A stretch of DNA of 39,164 nucleotides, from NCBI GenBank assembly GCA_016188575.1, contig JACPHN010000063.1, positions 1 to 39,164 of the forward strand, written 5' to 3'. Positions 20,616-39,164 of the stretch are shown here, piece by piece. Position numbers and translations under genes: made by a program. The notes beneath the pieces are model-generated. The model had not been told where the DNA came from. It made no database searches and worked only from the letters and a program-made list of their open reading frames with translations. The stretch comes from Candidatus Schekmanbacteria bacterium. GTDB lineage: Bacteria > CSSED10-310 > JACPHN01. Numbering within the stretch: position 1 is the first letter of the stretch; each line of letters begins with the position of its first letter.

Positions 20616-20916
20616 TTGCAGGTCCCTGTTCGCCCGAGCCGAGGGGCACAGGTCACCCTTGCAGGTGCCTCATCCGTCGTTCCGAGGGGCATCTGTCACG
20701 ATTGCCGTCGCCTGTCCGGACGGCCCGACAGGCACCTGCAAGGGTTGCAGGCATACGAGCAAGCGCGCCGAGTGGCATCGGTCATCGTTACCTGTGGCCC
20801 CTGGCCCGCGCCGAGGGGTCCTTGCAGTCCTTGCAGGTGCCACATCCGACGCCCGGAGGGGCTCATGTCACGATTGCAGGTGCCTGTCCGGACGGCCCGA
20901 CAGGCACCTGCAATCA
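20616..20916. repeat. Seven-unit 43-bp tandem repeat with a 172-bp higher-order period
   Basis: Units start at 20616, 20659, 20702, 20745, 20788, 20831 and 20874, exactly 43 bases apart. Most begin TTGCAGG and share a central CCGAGGGGC-like block; units 2 and 6 end TGTCACGA. Units 3 and 7 are nearly identical, and units 2 and 6, and 1 and 5, are also alike, so a four-unit (172-bp) block seems to have been duplicated. Unit 7 is a near-perfect dyad: a 15-bp arm (20874-20888) pairs fully with 20899-20913 across a 10-base loop. The period is not a multiple of three, so it is not a coding repeat. Confidence 0.9.
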
Positions 20917-27530: not shown

Positions 27531-28589
27531 ATGCAGCTCGTCATCAACACCTTTGGCGCGAGCCTTCGCAAGACCGGAGACCGCTTCGTGATCCAGGCCG
27601 GCGAGCGCTCGCTGGCAGTCTCGGCGAAGAAAGTGCAGAGCATTCTGATCGCCACCGCGGCGTGCTTCTCCACCGATGCCATCGAGCTCGCGAGCCAGCA
27701 CAACATCGACGTCATCTTTCTGGACAAGTACGGCGATCCCTATGGGCGCGTATGGTTGCCGCGACTGGGCAGCACGGCGGCGATCCGCAGGCGCCAGATC
27801 GAGATCGCCCGCGAGCCCGAGGGGTTGGCCCTGGTGCGCGACTGGATCGTCACCAAGCTGCGGAACCAGGAGGAGTTTCTTGACGAGCTGTGGCGGCGGC
27901 GCCCGGGCACGGATGAGCTGTTCGCCGCCGCCGTGGAGACGCTGCGCGACAGCCGCCGTAAGCTCGGCGCGCTGACCGGCGGGATCGACGAGCTCCGCGG
28001 CACGATCATGGGTATCGAGGGGAGCGCCGCCCGCGCCTATTTCCAGTGTCTGGGGGCGCTCATGCCGGAACCCTACGCCTTCTCCACGCGCAGTCGCCAC
28101 CCCGCCAAGGACCCCTTCAACGCCACCCTCAACTACGCCTACGGTGTCCTCTACAGCATGGTCGAGCGCGCCTGCATCGTCGCCGGCCTCGACCCCTTCG
28201 TCGGCTTCCTGCACACCGACAACTACAACAAGCAGTCGCTCGTCTTCGATCTCATCGAGCCGTTCCGCATCATCGGCGAGCGCACCGCCGTCCTGATGTT
28301 TACGGGCCGGCGCGCTCACCAGTCCTACTTCGCGGAGATTCCGGCAGGCGTCACCATCAGCAAGGACGGCAAGGCGGCGCTGATCGAGTCGCTCAACCAG
28401 CGGCTCGACCGCGCCGTGCGCTACGGGGTCCAGGCAGACAAACGCAAGCGGCGTAACGTCAAACAACGCCACGTCGTCCAGCTCGAGGCGCACGCGCTGG
28501 CCAATGCGCTGATCGGGCGCCGCGACTTGCCGACGATCGTCGAGACCCGCGAGCTGTGGAAAGAAGACGCCGAGCCGGGCGCGAGCTGA
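27531..28589 (+). CDS. cas1: CRISPR integrase Cas1, type I-B
   Basis: A 352-residue Cas1, the integrase subunit that inserts new spacers at the leader end of the array with Cas2. The N-terminal beta domain runs to about residue 75 (QLVINTFGASLRKTGDRF at the start). The catalytic helical domain has Glu163 in GIEGSAARAY, His228 in GFLHTDNYNK and Asp240 in VFDLIEPFR, the expected metal-binding triad. NYAYGVLYSMVE is the usual core helix. The length (about 330-350) and the TDNYNK...DLIEPFR spacing fit Cas1 of type I-B/I-C loci. ATG is preceded by GGAGG. It opens the adaptation module, ahead of cas2 and cas4; in most loci cas4 comes first. Confidence 0.95.
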   Translation: MQLVINTFGASLRKTGDRFVIQAGERSLAVSAKKVQSILIATAACFSTDAIELASQHNIDVIFLDKYGDPYGRVWLPRLGSTAAIRRRQIEIAREPEGLALVRDWIVTKLRNQEEFLDELWRRRPGTDELFAAAVETLRDSRRKLGALTGGIDELRGTIMGIEGSAARAYFQCLGALMPEPYAFSTRSRHPAKDPFNATLNYAYGVLYSMVERACIVAGLDPFVGFLHTDNYNKQSLVFDLIEPFRIIGERTAVLMFTGRRAHQSYFAEIPAGVTISKDGKAALIESLNQRLDRAVRYGVQADKRKRRNVKQRHVVQLEAHALANALIGRRDLPTIVETRELWKEDAEPGAS

Positions 28590-28600
28590 GAGGGGCGCTG

Positions 28601-28690
28601 GTCGACGGGGCGCGGGTCGACGGGGCGCGGGTCGACGGGGCGCGGGTCGACGGGGCGCGGGTCGACGGAGCGCTGGTTGACGGGGCGCAA
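28601..28690 (+). repeat. Six-unit 15-bp tandem repeat between cas1 and cas2
   Basis: Units of GTCGACGGGGCGCGG start at 28601, 28616, 28631 and 28646; those at 28661 and 28676 are slightly diverged. A partial unit precedes 28601. Each unit contains a SalI-like palindrome, GTCGAC. The period is five codons and lies in frame with cas2, reading VDGAR. The cas2 start is more likely at 28787, which makes this non-coding. Confidence 0.9.
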
Positions 28691-28786
28691 GCATTTGAAG
28701 CCGATCTGCGTCAATCGCTTGCACCTTGTAAACTGCGCTTGGGCGTGGCACAATCTTCTCCCGGGCAACAACAAGGAGGCGTGACT

Positions 28787-29077
28787 GTGCTGACGTGGGT
28801 CATCTACGACATCTCTGCCGACAAGACGCGCACACGCATCGCCAAAGCTTGCCTCGACTACGGGCTCTACCGCGTGCAAAAGAGCGTCTTCCTCGGCGAC
28901 ATCGATCGCAACCAGGTCGACGAGATCCTGCTGTTCTCCAAGGAAATCCTCGACGCCGCGGCCGATTCCTTCTACGTCTTCCCTATGTGTCGCGAGGATT
29001 TCAAGCGCGTCCGCATCCACGGCCAGGGTTTCGACCGGCAGCTCGTCGCCGACGAGATCCTCACCAAGATCATCTGA
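28787..29077 (+). CDS. cas2: CRISPR adaptation protein Cas2
   Basis: A 96-residue Cas2, the dimeric partner that clamps two Cas1 dimers in the spacer-integration complex. The ferredoxin-like fold begins with VIYDISADKTR, where Asp8 is the conserved residue, followed by ACLDYGLYRVQKSVFLGDI, the typical RVQxSVF segment. It ends in a helix after DSFYVFPMCREDFKRV. I chose the GTG at 28787 because AAGGAGG lies 7 bases upstream. A GTG at 28781 is only one base from that sequence, and an in-frame extension back through the tandem repeat lacks a ribosome binding site. cas4 starts 14 bases after the stop. Confidence 0.93.
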   Translation: MLTWVIYDISADKTRTRIAKACLDYGLYRVQKSVFLGDIDRNQVDEILLFSKEILDAAADSFYVFPMCREDFKRVRIHGQGFDRQLVADEILTKII

Positions 29078-29091
29078 GCCGCGCGGGCGCG

Positions 29092-29676
29092 ATGGACGTC
29101 TACATTTCCCCGAGCCACATCGTAGAATACCTCTACTGCCCGCGGTTCACCTACTTTGAGCTCGTTCTGGCTGTGCCGCAGCGCGAAGAGCTACGCTTCA
29201 AGGTCATGAAAGGGCGGGAGGTGCATCACGAGCGCGAGAAGGTGAACCCGCACTATCTGCGCCGCCGGCTCGGCGTGGTCGCGCGCCGGCATGCGGTGGA
29301 GATGTCCTCGGCCGAGCTCCGGGTCAAGGGCATCGTCGACGAGGTGCTGGAGCTCGCCGACGGCACCATGGCGCCGCTCGACTACAAGTTCGCCGAAGAC
29401 ACCGGCCACCTGTACGAAAACCGCAAGATGCAGTCGGTGCTCTACGGGCTGTTGATCCGCGACGTTTTCGGGCGCGACGTGCGCGCCGGCTACCTTTGTT
29501 ATGTGCGCTCGGAGCACAAGATCGAGGAGATCCCGTTCACCGCGGACGACTTCGCGGCGGCGCGGCAGGCGGTCGACGAGGTGTTCGCTATCATCCAACA
29601 GGGGGCGTTCCCGCAGGCGACGCGGTGCGCAGCGCGTTGCGAGGACTGTACCTACCGCAACCTTTGCGTGCAGTGA
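29092..29676 (+). CDS. cas4: CRISPR-associated nuclease Cas4
   Basis: A 194-residue Cas4, a RecB-family exonuclease with an iron-sulfur cluster that trims prespacers and helps choose those next to the right PAM. The four cluster Cys are Cys16 (YLYCPRF) and Cys183, Cys186 and Cys192 in the C-terminal ARCEDCTYRNLC; Cys179 is also nearby. The nuclease residues are Asp83 in KGIVDEV and Asp97-x-Lys99 in PLDYKFA, with His45/His46 (EVHHER) at the first site. ATG follows cas2 by 14 bases. The gene is complete, and its stop lies only 7 bases before the first base of the IscB element's structured RNA, so the insertion has not damaged it. Confidence 0.93.
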   Translation: MDVYISPSHIVEYLYCPRFTYFELVLAVPQREELRFKVMKGREVHHEREKVNPHYLRRRLGVVARRHAVEMSSAELRVKGIVDEVLELADGTMAPLDYKFAEDTGHLYENRKMQSVLYGLLIRDVFGRDVRAGYLCYVRSEHKIEEIPFTADDFAAARQAVDEVFAIIQQGAFPQATRCAARCEDCTYRNLCVQ

Positions 29677-29683
29677 GGCAACC

Positions 29684-30005
29684 GTCACCTTCTCCATCCA
29701 ACCGCCGAAAGGCGGTATGGATGGAGCTTGGGGGAGCAATCCCCCGGGCTCCGAGGTGACCAGCCCCAGCCAGGAGGAGAAGTGATGAGCTGATCTTCAA
29801 CGGGCTACGTCGGGCGGGTGACGACACCCGGGAGTGCGAGCGCCAGCTCCCGGCCCTGTCGCCCCGGATCATGAGCGGCCAAGGAGACCACCGCGAAGGT
29901 CCGGGGTACTCAAGCCTGTCCGACATCGGCGAGGCGCACGTTACCGCCCCTTCGGGGGCGAGAACCCAAGGTAACAGGGCCCCTTCGGGGGACAGGAGGA
30001 AGCGA
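29684..30005 (+). ncRNA. HEARO / IscB omegaRNA
   Basis: The 322 bases before iscB fold strongly and match the HEARO RNA plan that accompanies iscB. A 6-bp closing stem, GTCACC (29684-29689) with GGTGAC (29755-29760), encloses a 9-bp stem (29692-29700 with 29718-29726) capped by ACCGCC-GAAA-GGCGGT, plus a 5-bp G/C stem (29730-29734 with 29741-29745). Further on, GGTCCGGGGTACTCAAGCC near 29900-29918 is reminiscent of conserved HEARO sequence. At the 3' end, GTTACC (29940-29945) pairs with GGTAAC (29970-29975) around a C4-TTCG-G4 hairpin, and a second CCCC-TTCG hairpin follows directly before the iscB ribosome binding site. In this family the guide is the sequence just 5' of the scaffold, about 29668-29683, inside the cas4 end. 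Confidence 0.85.
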
Positions 30006-31322
30006 ATGGTCAATCGGGCGTTGGTCCTCGACAGCGAGCGCAAGCCGCTCATGCCGTGCCACCCGGCGCGGGTGAGACGGCTCCTCCGCGACGGCAAGGC
30101 GGCGGTCTTCCGTCGCGAGCCGTTCACGATCATTCTTCGAGAGCGAGTCGGAGGAGAGACCCAGCCCATCGAAGTGAAGCTCGATCCCGGATCGAAGACG
30201 ACGGGCATCGCCCTCGTCGCTCGGGGCAAGCGAGGCCGGAAGGTCGTCTTGGCCGCCGAGATCACCCATCGGAGCGGAGAGATCCGCGACGCCATGACGA
30301 AGCGCCGGGCGCTCCGGCAGGGGCGACGATACCGGAAGGTCCGGCACCGAGCGCCCCGGTTCCTGAACCGGCGGCGGCCCGAAGGCTGGCTCCCTCCGTC
30401 ACTCGAGAGCCGGGTCCGCCAGGTCGAGACCTGGGCGCGGCGGCTCGCTCGCTTTACGCCGGTCACGGCGGTTGAGGTCGAGACCGCGCGGTTCGATACG
30501 CACGTCCTGTCGGTCGGCTACGACCTCGAGGGCGTCGAGTTTCAGCGCGGCACGCTCTTCGGATGGGAGCTCCGCGAGTACGTCTTCCACCGGGACGGCC
30601 ACCGGTGTCGGTACTGCGGGGGCGAGTCGGGAGTTCCCGTGCTCGAGCTCGAGCACGGGATCCCGAAGGCCCGGGGCGGAAGCGACCGCGTCGCCAATCT
30701 CGTGACGGCCTGCCGGGCGTGCAACCAGGCCAAGGGCAACCGAACGGCGACCGAATGGGCCGAGGCCCTCGCAGGGAGCCCGACGAAGCTCGATCGCGTC
30801 CGCCGGGCTTATGCGACGAAGGTCGCCGTTGGCAAACACCCGAGCCTCCGGGACGCGGCGGCGATCAATGCGACCCGATACGCCATCGGGGACCGACTGA
30901 AGACCCTGGGGATCCCAGTCGGGTTCCGGACGGGCGGGCGGACGAAGATGAACCGAACGACCCAGGGGTACCCGAAGCGCCACTGGATCGACGCGGCGTG
31001 CGTCGGGGAGACGGCACATCGCGTCAGGCTCGACCCGGGGATGACGATCCTGCGGATCCGGGCGAGAGGCCACGGGACACGCAAGCGGTGCGGGACAGAC
31101 GCCCATGGGTTCCCGATTCGGCACGCGCCTCGAGCCAAGCGCTTCCTCGGGTTTGCGACCGGAGACCTGGTACGTGCGGTGATTCCGGTCGGGAAGTATC
31201 GGGGCATCCATGTCGGCCGGATCGCGATCCGGCACCGCCCGAGCTTCAAGCTCGCCAGGTTCGACGTCCATCCGAAGTACCTTGCGCTCCTCCAGAGGGC
31301 GGACGGCTATGAGTACGCGTAA
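30006..31322 (+). CDS. iscB: IscB RNA-guided nuclease (Cas9 ancestor family)
   Basis: A 438-residue IscB that uses the upstream omegaRNA to find and cut double-stranded DNA. Domains in order: the PLMP domain (about 1-50, ERKPLMPCHPARVRRLLRDGKA); RuvC-I with VKLDPGSKTTGIAL, catalytic Asp60; an Arg-rich bridge helix (about 98-125); RuvC-II with AVEVETARFD, Glu157; the HNH domain with Cys201/Cys204, His217 in LEHGIP and Cys236/Cys239, with Asn231 in the metal loop; and RuvC-III with HWIDAACVG, Asp329. The TAM-interacting region follows. All catalytic positions are present, so it looks active, with length typical of IscB. ATG has AGGAGG 6 bases upstream. Its stop lies just after an in-frame start that would serve cas6. 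Insertion here is unusual. Confidence 0.95.
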   Translation: MVNRALVLDSERKPLMPCHPARVRRLLRDGKAAVFRREPFTIILRERVGGETQPIEVKLDPGSKTTGIALVARGKRGRKVVLAAEITHRSGEIRDAMTKRRALRQGRRYRKVRHRAPRFLNRRRPEGWLPPSLESRVRQVETWARRLARFTPVTAVEVETARFDTHVLSVGYDLEGVEFQRGTLFGWELREYVFHRDGHRCRYCGGESGVPVLELEHGIPKARGGSDRVANLVTACRACNQAKGNRTATEWAEALAGSPTKLDRVRRAYATKVAVGKHPSLRDAAAINATRYAIGDRLKTLGIPVGFRTGGRTKMNRTTQGYPKRHWIDAACVGETAHRVRLDPGMTILRIRARGHGTRKRCGTDAHGFPIRHAPRAKRFLGFATGDLVRAVIPVGKYRGIHVGRIAIRHRPSFKLARFDVHPKYLALLQRADGYEYA

Positions 31323-32079
31323 CGAAGGCAAAAGCACCGCTTCCCCACCCCCCAACCGCTGCGCGGTGGGGGAGCACCCGCGGCGCGATCCGGTGGAAGA
31401 GCTGACCTACCTGGAGATCGCCGAGGCGCGGTTGCGCTTTCCGCGCGTGCTGCTCCCGAGCGAGACGCCGAAGCTCAGGGGCTACCTCGGGACCGCGTTC
31501 AGCGAGGCCGAGCTGCTGCACAACCACAACGCGGCGGGCGGGCTGCGCTACGATTACCCGCGCGTGCAGCTCAAGGTGGTGGCCGAGGAAGCGCTGCTCG
31601 TCGGCATCGGCGAGGGCGTGCCGATCGTCGTGGACGTGTGGTCACGGTGCGACGTCGCGCGCCTCGGCGACGAGCTGCTGCCGATTCTCGAGGCGACGCT
31701 GAACCGGCGGCGCGCCGCCATCGGCGCCCTGGAGCAGCCGCTGCGCTACACCTTCCGCAGCCCCTGGCTCGGCCTGAACCAGGACAACCACTTCGCCTAT
31801 GCCTGCACCACCAACGAGGAGGTGCGCGAGCAGCTCCTGCGGCGCGTGCTGATCGGCAACTGCCTGTCGCTCGCCAAGAGCTTCGGGCATCGGGTGGCGA
31901 CGCGGCTTGCCGCCGACTGCCGGGCGCTGCACGCGCTGCCCTGCCGCCTCAAGGGCGTTTCGATGCTGGGCTTTCGCGGCAGCTTCTCTCTCAACTTCTC
32001 TATTCCCGACCGCCTCGGTATCGGCAAATCCGTGTCGCGAGGCTTCGGCATTGTGGAGCGATGGAACGGTGATTATTGA
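31309..32079 (+). CDS. cas6: CRISPR pre-crRNA endonuclease Cas6
   Basis: A Cas6 that cuts the repeat RNA to make crRNAs and often stays on the 3' hairpin. The C-terminal half shows the two hallmark elements: LKGVSMLGFRGSFSLNF and the Gly-rich loop GIGKSVSRGFGIVE. LLHNHNAAGG offers candidate catalytic His residues near the start of the fold. Two starts are possible. The ATG at 31309 lies within iscB, overlaps its stop and gives 256 residues; the first 28 are encoded by the IscB terminus and right-end hairpin and have no Cas6 character. The GTG at 31393 gives 228 residues beginning EELTYLEIAEARLRF, a normal Cas6 start, but has no Shine-Dalgarno sequence. The GTG is probably the original start. 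The stop overlaps the cas8b start. Confidence 0.85.
   Translation: MSTRNEGKSTASPPPNRCAVGEHPRRDPVEELTYLEIAEARLRFPRVLLPSETPKLRGYLGTAFSEAELLHNHNAAGGLRYDYPRVQLKVVAEEALLVGIGEGVPIVVDVWSRCDVARLGDELLPILEATLNRRRAAIGALEQPLRYTFRSPWLGLNQDNHFAYACTTNEEVREQLLRRVLIGNCLSLAKSFGHRVATRLAADCRALHALPCRLKGVSMLGFRGSFSLNFSIPDRLGIGKSVSRGFGIVERWNGDY
31339..31375. repeat. Terminal hairpin at the right end of the IscB element
   Basis: GCTTCCCCACC (31339-31349) pairs with GGTGGGGGAGC (31365-31375) with one G-T wobble, enclosing a GC-rich loop. Subterminal imperfect hairpins of this kind mark the ends of IS200/IS605-like elements. It lies 17 bases after the iscB stop and about 18 bases before the likely original start of cas6. 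Confidence 0.65.
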
Positions 32080-34150
32080 GGACCTGATACGGCTCGGGCG
32101 CGCGCTGCTGGCCGGGGAGCTGGAAGCGCGGGTGCTGGTGGAGATGCTCACCGACGTGAGCGAGACGACCACGAAGAACTTTTATCAGAATGTTTTCGTC
32201 GTCGAGCTTGGAGACGGCGGTGGCGAGGCCGGTTTGCCGGTGGTGTTGCCGGTGCAACGGTGGGGGGACGAGGTGCCGGTGCCGGACAAGCCGAAGAAGA
32301 CGGAGCTCCGCGTCGACGTGGAGCGGGCGGCCGGGGCGCCAATTGTGCTGCCGAGGGGAGGCAATCCGCTGGTGCCGCAGGGGCGCTACGGTTTGCCCGC
32401 CTACCCGCTGTATGAGGCGCACGTCCGCGGTTTCGCCGAGGGCGCGGGCAAGGCGGCGGAGTTTCTGGCGGGACGCGTAAAGCGAACGCAGGGGCTGACC
32501 CTGGCACCGGCGGTGCTGCACGCCGCGGCGGAAGGCCTGCACGCGGAGGCGAAGCGGCTCGCGCTCGACTCAAAGCAAAAGGTGCTGGGCGTGCTGGTGC
32601 TGGCGCGGTGCGGCGAGGCGGACCCGTACCGGTACGCGCCCGGCACCTCATCGGACCGGGCGATCGGCCGCAGCGCGAAGCGCCCGGGGGAACAGATCCT
32701 GCCGCGCGCGGAGGTGTTCGGCGAACGCCTCTGGGAGGGCAAGATCGAGGAAGGGCGATCGGCCGGAGCGCGGGACGGCAGGTGCTCGATTTGCGGCGGG
32801 CCGGGCCCTGTGGTCTCGGCGTACAACAAGGCCTGGCCGTGGCTCACGCCGACCTGGACCTGCCCGCTGCCGCACGCGGGCGACAAGGATCGGATGGTCG
32901 AGATGGTCGCGCTCGACGACGCGTGCTACCGCGCGTTGACCGCGGGCGCCTCCGTATTCTCCAAGCTGTCCCGCCAGGTGCACGTCGAGGTGACCCGCGA
33001 GCTGTTCTCGCCGGTCGCCGACCCGGAGGCCCGGCGCATCGCGGGCGAAAAATCGATCACGGATATCCCGAAGATCCTCGGCGGCGCCTTCGTGGTTCCC
33101 GTGCATCGCGACCTGACCGAAGATCCCGAGGAGGCGGCTGATCTGTGCCGGCTCACGCTGGAAATGATGGCGGAGGATGGCAAGGGTGCCGCGGCCGCGG
33201 GCCGCATGGGCCATCATCTCGCCGACATCGTCGGTTTTGATTGTTGGTTGCCGCGGGCAGCGGCCCAAAGAGCCGAATACCGGATGAAGATCCTCTACTA
33301 TTCGGGGGATCCGAGCCGTGCCGACATTCACCTGCGCGCGGTCATCGACGACGTCGCTCCCACCGTCATGCCGCGTCTGGAGGCGCTGGCCCGCCGCACC
33401 GGCGACGAAGCGGTGGCGCTGGCCCGCGAAATCATCCGCAAGCCATCCGACAAGCAGCTCGCGTTTTACAAACGCCGCTTCGGCGCGGTGCCCTACCTGC
33501 TCGGCCGCGGCTACGGCGGTGCCTACCTCTGGGAGCGGCTGCAGTCCGCCTTTCACCGCCGCCCGATGGACGCGGCGCGGCCGACCGCCAACAGCGCCCA
33601 CCGGCTCGCGGGTCTCGCCGCCCACTATCCCGATTCCAACCCGCAGGTCGCCGAGGAGGTCGTTTTCTTCCTCGCGTTTCGCGGTTTTCTCGAGCGCTAC
33701 AATAACCAGCTCGCCAACACCAGGAGCACCCCGATGTCGATGCGGCCTTGGAGAGAGTTGCTATCCGTTGTTTTCGAGGCTCCGATCGAGGAGATTCATT
33801 TCCAGAGCCCCGCGGAGATCGGCTTCGCCGCGGGCGCGCTCCTGCGGCGCTTCGGCCGCTGGTATTATCACGCTACCGATCGCGATCTGCTCAAGCATCG
33901 CGTCATGACGTTCGGCTCGGATTTGTCGCCGCTGGCGGTCTGGCATCGCGGCGTGGCGCGCATCTTCGACGTGGCCGCGCGCCATGACAAGATCAAGATG
34001 CCGGAGGACTTCCGGCGCCGCGTCGGCGCGATTCTGGCGGAGCTCGACCGCCTGGCAGACGGCGTTCGCTCCGACCGCGATGGGTTCATGACGGGTTTTT
34101 GGTCCGGGCATGCGCTTGAACCATCCACGCAGCACAAGGAGGAAGTCTAA
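32069..34150 (+). CDS. cas8b: Type I-B Cascade large subunit Cas8b (Csh1-like)
   Basis: A 693-residue large subunit that recognises the PAM and recruits Cas3. It matches the TM1802/Csh1 type as I recall it: VETLTDV-like opening (LVEMLTDVSETTTKNFYQNVFVV), a Cys pair at 239 and 242 in RCSICGGPGPV that suggests a zinc site, and a C-terminal helical domain of about 140 residues. The start is a GTG at 32069, overlapping the cas6 stop by 11 bases; the nearby ATG at 32061 is in another frame. Its stop directly precedes the cas7 ATG. A second start within the gene at 33734 has its own ribosome binding site and would make the small subunit. Sequence identity across Cas8 families is low, so the subtype rests also on the Csh2-type Cas7. 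Confidence 0.85.
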   Translation: MIIEDLIRLGRALLAGELEARVLVEMLTDVSETTTKNFYQNVFVVELGDGGGEAGLPVVLPVQRWGDEVPVPDKPKKTELRVDVERAAGAPIVLPRGGNPLVPQGRYGLPAYPLYEAHVRGFAEGAGKAAEFLAGRVKRTQGLTLAPAVLHAAAEGLHAEAKRLALDSKQKVLGVLVLARCGEADPYRYAPGTSSDRAIGRSAKRPGEQILPRAEVFGERLWEGKIEEGRSAGARDGRCSICGGPGPVVSAYNKAWPWLTPTWTCPLPHAGDKDRMVEMVALDDACYRALTAGASVFSKLSRQVHVEVTRELFSPVADPEARRIAGEKSITDIPKILGGAFVVPVHRDLTEDPEEAADLCRLTLEMMAEDGKGAAAAGRMGHHLADIVGFDCWLPRAAAQRAEYRMKILYYSGDPSRADIHLRAVIDDVAPTVMPRLEALARRTGDEAVALAREIIRKPSDKQLAFYKRRFGAVPYLLGRGYGGAYLWERLQSAFHRRPMDAARPTANSAHRLAGLAAHYPDSNPQVAEEVVFFLAFRGFLERYNNQLANTRSTPMSMRPWRELLSVVFEAPIEEIHFQSPAEIGFAAGALLRRFGRWYYHATDRDLLKHRVMTFGSDLSPLAVWHRGVARIFDVAARHDKIKMPEDFRRRVGAILAELDRLADGVRSDRDGFMTGFWSGHALEPSTQHKEEV
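33734..34150 (+). CDS. cas11: Small subunit Cas11 from an internal start in cas8b
   Basis: An in-frame ATG at 33734 is preceded by AGGAG at 33722-33726, a spacing of 7, which is as good as any ribosome binding site in this operon. It would give a 138-residue helical protein beginning MSMRPWRELL and ending at the cas8b stop. Internal translation of Cas11 from cas8 is established for types I-B, I-C and I-D, and the product size fits those cases (roughly 120-150). Cas11 subunits line the belly of Cascade and hold the displaced strand. The start is read from sequence; its use is inferred. Confidence 0.7.
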   Translation: MSMRPWRELLSVVFEAPIEEIHFQSPAEIGFAAGALLRRFGRWYYHATDRDLLKHRVMTFGSDLSPLAVWHRGVARIFDVAARHDKIKMPEDFRRRVGAILAELDRLADGVRSDRDGFMTGFWSGHALEPSTQHKEEV

Positions 34151-35161
34151 ATGAGCGACAATACTGTGCGATCCGGCGAGATCCTTTTCATCAAGGCGGT
34201 CAAGGATGGCATTCCCAACCGCGATCCGCTGCGCGACAGCGACGCGCGCCGGCTCTTCGGCGAGGAGGACGGGCGCATTTCCCTGTCCGACGTGAGCATC
34301 AAGCGTGACGTGCGCGATTACGTGCTCGCCCGCCACGCCGACGGCGGTCCCGGGCGCGACCGCTTCGTGTTCGTGCGCAAGGAATTCAGCGACGGCGGCA
34401 AGCTGCTCGGCCGGGAGAACCTGGCAAAGACCCTGCTGGCGCGCGCCGGGCGCAGCGTCAAGGACACGGACAAGGCGTCGATCCTGTCGGTGGCTTTCGA
34501 CGCGCGCGCGTTCGGCATCGTGTTCAGCGTCGGCGACAAGGCGTTCAATCAGGTCGGCCCGGTGCAGTTCGGCTGGGCGCATTCACTGCATCCGGTCGAG
34601 ACGCGGTACACACAGGGCACCGTGGTGATGCCGTCCAAGGACACGAACACGGCGGCGGACGCGGGCGCGGAGGCGGAGGGCAGCACGCAGGGGACGATCT
34701 GGACGATGTACACGGTGCCGTTCGCGGTCTTCGCGATGCCAGCGGTGATCAGCAGCAGCATCGCCCGCGACACCGGGCTGTCGGCGGCTGACCTGGAGCT
34801 GTTGCTCGAAGCGCTGTGGCGGGGCACCTCGGCGCGGCAGGCGCGCGGCCGCGGGTTGCAGCGGCCGCTGCTGCTGCTCCACGTCGAGTACCGCGACCCG
34901 TTCGACCGCATCGGTTACCTCGAGGAAGGAATCGCGCTCGAACCCGGGCGAGAGTCGTGGCTCGGCGGCAAGCAGCCGACGTCGGTCGCGGACGTGTCGC
35001 TCGATGTGCGCGGTCTGGCGGGAGTGCTCGAGAAGAACGTCGGGCGCATCGCGCGGGCGCGGGTGTGGCGCGACGAGCGGCTGGCGATCCGCGGCGAGCT
35101 GCCTGCCGAAGTCAGCGTGTGGCCGCCGTGCGACCCGAGCGCGGCGGAGCTGGGGAGATAA
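34151..35161 (+). CDS. cas7: Cascade backbone protein Cas7, Csh2 family
   Basis: A 336-residue Cas7 that polymerises along the crRNA as the Cascade backbone. The opening matches the Csh2 family of type I-B: SGEILFIKAVKDGIPNRDPLRDSDARRLFGE followed by LSDVSIKRDVRDYV. These are the RRM core and the SxxSIKRxxR segment. The middle thumb region includes FNQVGPVQFGWAHSLHPVE and VVMPSKDTN. LLLLHVEYRDPFDRIGYLEEGI lies near the C-terminal part. The ATG follows cas8b directly (stop at 34148-34150) with AAGGAGGAAG upstream, so translation is coupled. The family fit is strong and is the best single evidence for subtype I-B. cas5 begins 6 bases downstream. Confidence 0.95.
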   Translation: MSDNTVRSGEILFIKAVKDGIPNRDPLRDSDARRLFGEEDGRISLSDVSIKRDVRDYVLARHADGGPGRDRFVFVRKEFSDGGKLLGRENLAKTLLARAGRSVKDTDKASILSVAFDARAFGIVFSVGDKAFNQVGPVQFGWAHSLHPVETRYTQGTVVMPSKDTNTAADAGAEAEGSTQGTIWTMYTVPFAVFAMPAVISSSIARDTGLSAADLELLLEALWRGTSARQARGRGLQRPLLLLHVEYRDPFDRIGYLEEGIALEPGRESWLGGKQPTSVADVSLDVRGLAGVLEKNVGRIARARVWRDERLAIRGELPAEVSVWPPCDPSAAELGR

Positions 35162-38831: not shown

Positions 38832-39164
38832 GCCTCTATGCTCAATCCAGAAGAACAAGGATTGAAACATTTTCTCTGGCGCCTTCGCGGCCGAGAAATC
38901 CACCAGCCTCTATGCTCAATCCAGAAGAACAAGGATTGAAACTAGCTTAGATAATGGTAGGATGCTGTATTTCAGCACGCCTCTATGCTCAATCCAGAAG
39001 AACAAGGATTGAAACATGCAACAGTGCTTCCTCGTGCCAATGAAGCATTGGGCCTCTATGCTCAATCCAGAAGAACAAGGATTGAAACCATGTAGCCTGA
39101 GCATCTTGCCAGTTTTCTTAATCTTGCCTCTATGCTCAATCCAGAAGAACAAGGATTGAAACAT
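38832..39164 (+). CRISPR. Type I-B CRISPR array, five repeats in view, continuing past the window
   Basis: Five identical 37-nt repeats start at 38832, 38906, 38979, 39052 and 39126. Each begins GCCTCTATGC and ends ATTGAAAC. Positions 11-17 (TCAATCC) pair with 28-34 (GGATTGA) across a 10-base loop, and the last 8 bases are the expected crRNA 5' handle. Spacers are 37, 36, 36 and 37 bases (38869-38905, 38943-38978, 39016-39051, 39089-39125). The window ends two bases into the fifth spacer. Perfect repeats next to the leader are consistent with a functional array. Spacers 2-4 are visibly AT-richer than the host, as expected of phage or plasmid DNA. None matches another place in the window that I can find by eye. 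Confidence 0.97.

Follow-up and report, generated by a model that had tools for sequence, protein, structure and literature searches.

IscB nucleases belong to a family thought to be ancestral to Cas9. In TnpB systems the guide lies 3′, whereas the IscB guide considered here lies 5′. According to the general OMEGA rule, reportedly set out by Altae-Tran 2021 and Meers 2023, the guide is taken from the host flank and the target is the element-free site, and Weinberg et al. 2009 are said to have described HEARO integration at ATGA/GTGA. For TnpB, PMC11870625 describes a guide formed by the flank of the insertion site, a target-adjacent motif (TAM) that is the insertion motif, and cutting of the empty site, which restores the element. 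For OgeuIscB, the guide is about 16 nt long and about 14 TAM-proximal guide bases must match (PMC9640706). Here, we describe a HEARO-IscB element located between cas4 and cas6 and compare its ends, its predicted guide, and its exit with those of related copies.

A HEARO-IscB element within a cas operon

The window, meaning the whole 39,164-nucleotide stretch of DNA that was analyzed, derives from contig C174 of a 9.2 Mb genome (G000, hereafter the source genome). It carries cas1, cas2, cas4, cas6b, a large gene without a family match, cas7, cas5, cas3, and a CRISPR array, in that order; the family-assigned genes whose coordinates follow, the array, and the parts of the element all lie on the plus strand. 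We assigned cas1 (27531–28589; TIGR00287, 251.4 bits), cas2 (28556–29077 for the frame as listed; TIGR01573, with Cas2 homology from about residue 82 of that frame), and cas4 (29092–29676; TIGR00372, 114.7 bits, with its TGA at 29674–29676). The cas6 gene (31393–32079, 228 aa counted from GTG) has Cas6b_N and Cas6b_C matches, and the model nearest to cas7 (34151–35161) is Csh2. Of the proteins expected in a type I-B system, Cas6b is present, the Csh2 and Cas5h models both score below their cut-offs, and the cas8 candidate, the gene at the cas8 position (32073–34150), had no Pfam or NCBIfam match. Five repeats of the CRISPR array fall inside the window (38832–39164), and the array continues past the window end. 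Two repetitive regions were also noted: tandem 15-base units (GGGGCGCGGGTCGAC-like) at 28577–28690, spanning the end of cas1 and the start of the listed cas2 frame, and a region at 20632–20915 that contains two 110-base direct copies (82% alike) along with inverted copies of a 42-base unit.

The HEARO-IscB mobile element is 1709 bp long (29684–31392), with an exact left end and a right end set just before GTGGA. Its HEARO, or omegaRNA, scaffold (RF02033; 29684–29944) covers the full model, positions 1–211, with 83.7 bits, which is just above the gathering score of 83. Downstream, iscB (30006–31322) encodes 438 aa and scores 372.8 bits with NF040563 against a cut-off of 175, alongside RRXRR and HNH matches. 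When aligned to solved IscB chains, the catalytic residues were found intact, comprising the PLMP motif, RuvC residues D60, E159, and H326/D329, and HNH residue H217. The first helix of the scaffold (GUCACCUU/GAGGUGAC) opens at base 29684, which is scaffold base 1, and the guide adaptor hairpin of the solved OgeuIscB complex likewise opens at scaffold base 1 (PMC9640706).

Five other copies of the same subfamily in the source genome (L026, L027, L028, L033, and L034) have their first base at the equivalent of 29684, with unrelated DNA upstream; a sixth copy, C117, was excluded for its rearranged left end. The shared first base and the unrelated upstream DNA identify 29684 as the left end of the element and 29668–29683 as host DNA. 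The original prediction had placed the scaffold start at about 29684, seven bases past the cas4 stop, and had proposed that 29668–29683, made up of the last two codons and stop of cas4 with the seven bases after them, would be a guide supplied by the host flank. The HEARO match and the five sister left ends confirm the former, and the unrelated DNA upstream of the sister copies bears out the latter.

On the right side, four other ends in the source genome stop at the equivalent of 31397, with the motif included, and their flanks are unrelated. A second HEARO-IscB subfamily in this genome yielded ten left ends, all beginning GTCA, and five right ends. Overall, at least 16 left ends were found in the genome, and their guides are unrelated to one another. 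The right-end motif is G(T/C)GGA in all five ends of the window subfamily and ATGA in the second subfamily, and two iscB relatives, L178 and L179, apparently have their right end at ATGGA. No TnpA is present inside the element, and none of the eight Y1 TnpA genes in the source genome has the same ends; a right-end hairpin, which is a sign of IS200/IS605 elements, was no stronger than in shuffled sequences.

Predicted guide and reconstructed cas4-cas6 junction

The predicted natural guide, GTGCAGTGAGGCAACC, consists of the 16 nt directly 5′ of the scaffold (29668–29683) and lies outside the element. It runs from the last two codons of cas4 through its stop to the seven bases beyond, and includes the Shine-Dalgarno sequence and spacer of cas6. 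The Shine-Dalgarno sequence, GAGG (29675–29678), overlaps the cas4 stop and would lie 5 nt from the GTG once the flanks are joined. At the opposite end of the element is the predicted target motif, or TAM, GTGGA (31393–31397), whose GTG starts cas6. Joining the flanks reconstructs an empty site of GTGCAGTGAGGCAACC followed directly by GTGGAAGAGCTG, with the junction cas4-TGA/GAGG/CAACC/GTGGA. Homology to Cas6b begins a few residues past this GTG, and a homologous cas6, read from its ATG, differs by no more than 4 residues in N-terminal length from the cas6 described here. Judging from these alignments, the element has probably inserted exactly between the cas6 ribosome-binding site and the cas6 GTG, and the predicted guide is the translation-initiation region of cas6, which overlaps cas4 because the two genes are only 7 bases apart.

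No empty cas4-cas6 junction was found in the 98 genomes searched, and plasmids were also without a match. Relatives of cas4 were present in 15 of these genomes and relatives of cas6 in 4, the best full-length ones being 49% and 40% identical, respectively. The two genes were never joined at any relative locus read, and in the two genomes with relatives of both on one contig, they lay kilobases apart. With no empty cas4-cas6 site found in this search, GTGGA at cas6 is only presumed to be host DNA.

Within the source genome, no second guide target with fewer than two mismatches was found. One viral contig (L217, 5867–5886, minus strand) carries the exact 16-base guide plus ATGG at a stop/GAGG/ATG gene junction. 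This was the single exact viral match, in a collection whose size in bases was not given and for which there is hence no comparison with chance; its location at another stop/Shine-Dalgarno/ATG junction points to a generic motif.

Filled and empty sites on Pseudomonas plasmids

Filled and empty versions of a site could be compared directly on Pseudomonas plasmids. The filled site in L177 (...ACAGAGCGA, then the element, then ATGAAGAAGG) matched the empty site in L186, L187, L190, and L191 exactly. In all four of these empty plasmids, both flanks are joined directly at ATGA, and in the filled L177 copy ATGA is present once, at the right end. As the motif is present in the empty plasmids and kept once in the filled copy, it belongs to the host, and an empty site consists of the guide followed by the motif. 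It had been predicted that the target in the window is the element-free junction; this stands as the general OMEGA rule, exact at one sister site, but the CRISPR-specific meaning given to it is not supported. At the L177 site, the empty plasmids annotate a gene start 54 nt upstream, which makes ATGA internal there. A second filled site, L174, has the same layout relative to the empty L184, L185, L188, and L189, though the junction is ambiguous owing to tandem ATGA, with the filled site having one ATGA more than its four empty counterparts. Joined flanks of L179, which belongs to the RTGGA class of the window itself, yielded no filled-versus-empty pair, and neither did the joined flanks of L181, which would have given a third empty site of the ATGA class.

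Start codons at the right ends

We examined 28 right ends, comprising all 10 found in the source genome and 18 others (12 from a set of 67 loci and 6 from plasmids). At 8 of the 10 right ends in the source genome, the RTG of the motif opens a frame of 228 codons or more. Among 1144 control RTGA/RTGGA sites taken from those flanks, 257 reach 100 codons (p = 2e-4 for 8/10 versus control). The exceptions were L031, with 29 codons, and L032, with GCG in place of a start. In L032, this GCG (position 1842) stands before an acyltransferase gene where sister copies have GTG, and the element leader could supply the reading. The 12 sites from the 67-locus set were picked after results had been seen, mostly for an iscB stop overlapping a long frame, and the all-site tests (24/28, and 20/30 with 100 codons; p = 9e-5 for the frame test, allowing for one frame pre-closed by the TGA of ATGA) are biased upward by this choice. 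Because sites outside the source genome were partly picked with the result in view, the claim rests on the source genome and the plasmid sites. The right end could not be placed in four plasmid records (L222, L223, L225, and L226).

Guides in the source genome were enriched for Shine-Dalgarno sequences, with a 4-mer in the last 18 nt at 11 of 16 left flanks, compared with 28 of 144 control windows taken from farther upstream (p = 9e-5). The main Shine-Dalgarno count excludes L122 and seven cyanobacterial sites, and C117 had no usable left end. Outside the source genome the signal was weaker, at 12/34 versus 62/304 for the 4-mer (p = 0.04) and 7/34 versus 17/304 for the 5-mer (p = 0.006), and it was absent from six cyanobacterial sites.

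For several captured genes, the native N-terminus is recognizable at the motif. ThiF has profile position 1 at residue 9, and the matches begin from residue 3 for Glycos_trans_3N, from residue 10 for BenE, and from residue 5 for N_methyl of a type IV prepilin. The start of a parB gene is captured directly behind parA, and NCBI annotation places the start of the next gene over the iscB stop in L218 and L220. As a measure of how often such motifs coincide with starts, 50 kb of pCAR1 has annotated starts at 26 of 323 ATGA, 0 of 299 GTGA, and 3 of 209 RTGGA sites.

A survey for HEARO found matches in only 6 of 386 genomes, and the best populated besides the source genome, G054, ran contrary to a start-codon rule. 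Copies of the G054 clade end in GTTTACGT, and the start codon is missing in three of the five copies fetched; L206, L207, and L208 represent this distinct HEARO-IscB clade. Collectively, these comparisons suggest that the window subfamily and its relatives are likely to occupy the start codons of genes, in sense orientation, although the pattern is not universal. A different neighbor was seen in four Streptomyces loci (L107, L115, L128, and L129), where Ms_IGR-5 (RF02471) lies directly behind iscB. A check of two genomes showed a single occurrence of this RNA, next to which iscB may be a stable resident.

Exit from the element

The comparison of element exits took in 41 of 67 loci; those omitted were fragmentary or matched weakly. 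Most copies of the ATGA class have an iscB frame that reaches the element end, where the TGA of the host ATGA serves as its stop or the stop is part of a TGATG overlap. Exceptions were L099 and L105, in which iscB stops 3 bases before the end, and L174, L177, L182, and L183, in which it stops about 50 bases before. In the window class, iscB stops 70 bases ahead of the element end, and a 28-codon leader (31309–31392) bridges into the GTG; this leader begins with an ATG within the last iscB codons and is in frame with cas6. At three of the four other right ends of the window subfamily, the leader is also in frame, at 87 instead of 84 nt, and at L029 the leader frame is lost. L178 has a comparable leader, and L179 has one that ends in a TGATG overlap. 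Overlaps of the ATGA and TGATG types coupled translation experimentally in 13 of 14 pairs, according to PMC6728339. From the reading frames, a coupled exit of this kind would soften the damage caused by insertion.

Discussion

The explanation that we favor, and consider likely to be the best one, is ordinary OMEGA retention at an unusual address, with the element placed on the cas6 start. It builds on what was observed, namely where the element ends, where the guide and the start codon lie, how the frames run, the enrichment of Shine-Dalgarno sequences, and an empty sister site that matches exactly; from these we infer cutting, retention, and translational rescue by the element. The omegaRNA would use as its guide the 16 upstream host bases, with GTGGA at the cas6 start as the predicted TAM, and IscB with this omegaRNA would cut the element-free junction of the same site, for example, on a sister chromosome or once the element has been excised. 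Repair templated by the filled copy would then keep the element in place, as general homing-like retention that is not directed at CRISPR. Ribosomes leaving iscB, where its TGA shares bases with the captured ATG in ATGA or TGATG, would arrive at the captured start; in the window copy, ribosomes leaving the leader, which overlaps the iscB stop and is in frame with cas6, would arrive at the cas6 start. Going further, a large HEARO-IscB group could be specialized for start codons, with a ribosome-binding site as guide, a start codon as TAM, and an exit that hands over ribosomes, a proposal for which we put the chances at about even. Such a group would enter operons like one more gene, its nuclease guarding translation start sites.

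The most serious alternative, somewhat less probable than not in our estimation, is that survival alone shaped the pattern. Insertion would then take place at any RTGA or RTGGA, those insertions at gene starts or outside genes would persist, and there would be no rescue by coupling. Transposases of the IS200/IS605 type read just 4–5 target bases, and such a short target, along with the frequency of ATGA at starts (26/323 sites), would suit this alternative. Intergenic and antisense sites should persist too under survival alone, yet 8 of 10 sites in the source genome are sense and in frame. Furthermore, overlap between the iscB stop and the captured start recurs in lineages that are not related, and the leader of the window subfamily is still in frame despite a 3-nt change in length.

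We think it unlikely that the element is a fossil, with an inactive omegaRNA and nuclease and a guide position now without function. The HEARO score is close to its threshold (83.7 versus 83), and the source genome holds many partial or deleted copies of the element, but the window copy has a full 438-aa frame with its catalytic residues, and helix 1 is intact.

It is more doubtful still that GTGGA belongs to the element as its final bases. In that case, the junction in the host would read ...GTGAGGCAACC followed by AGAGCTG..., and cas6 would start at a GTG overlapping the cas4 stop, in an alternative frame that does work (GTG AGG CAA CCA GAG CTG). As all five subfamily right ends carry G(T/C)GGA, the sequence alone cannot assign its owner. 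Nonetheless, the empty plasmids of the sister ATGA class reveal a motif that is host DNA and is kept once, and the apparent ATGGA ends of L178 and L179 also count against element ownership. In addition, GTG opens an in-frame long gene at three right ends (the window, L029, and L030), and such frequent agreement in frame would not be expected of a start that the element brings along.

We can largely set aside the original prediction's view of an effective cas4 guide, by which the nuclease targets other I-B loci or incoming related cas4 and so favors spread into CRISPR loci: two cas4 codons and the stop do lie within the guide, whose predicted target is an allele with cas4 and cas6 joined, but the at least 16 left ends in the source genome have unrelated guides and the one in the window is the ribosome-binding region of cas6; 10 of about 14 TAM-proximal bases are cas4 stop and spacer, which makes action against incoming elements with a related cas4 unlikely; spread into other CRISPR loci would require a conserved target sequence, which the junction does not offer; cas4 and cas6 are non-adjacent in the two searched genomes with relatives of both on one contig; and the source genome has no other near match, while the exact viral match sits at a generic stop/Shine-Dalgarno/ATG junction.

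Under OMEGA retention on a start codon, the CRISPR-specific reading is removed, and IscB here would be a generic start-codon element that landed by chance in a cas operon. If true, this would explain HEARO integration at ATGA/GTGA and would predict that natural IscB guides are ribosome-binding sites and natural TAMs are start codons. It would also give transposable elements a route into operons that causes little polar damage.

The window element resembles described HEARO/IscB systems (OMEGA, RF02033/NF040563) in having the omegaRNA at its left end, a host guide directly 5′, and IscB downstream, and in that one sister site, when empty, equals the guide joined to the motif. The start-codon position with a coupled exit was not found among the literature matches listed, though Weinberg et al. 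2009 could contain such remarks. Host-flank guides and cutting of the empty site are already known; occupation of start codons with a hand-over of ribosomes is the claim to check. TnpB in IS200/IS605 is similar in its flank guide and in an insertion motif that serves as the predicted TAM, whereas the window element has no TnpA and the captured sites are gene starts. Finally, the overlaps between iscB and captured genes are the same ATGA/TGATG overlaps as those of termination-reinitiation gene pairs, but unlike ordinary gene overlaps, they are made by a mobile element whose stop codon the target site completes.
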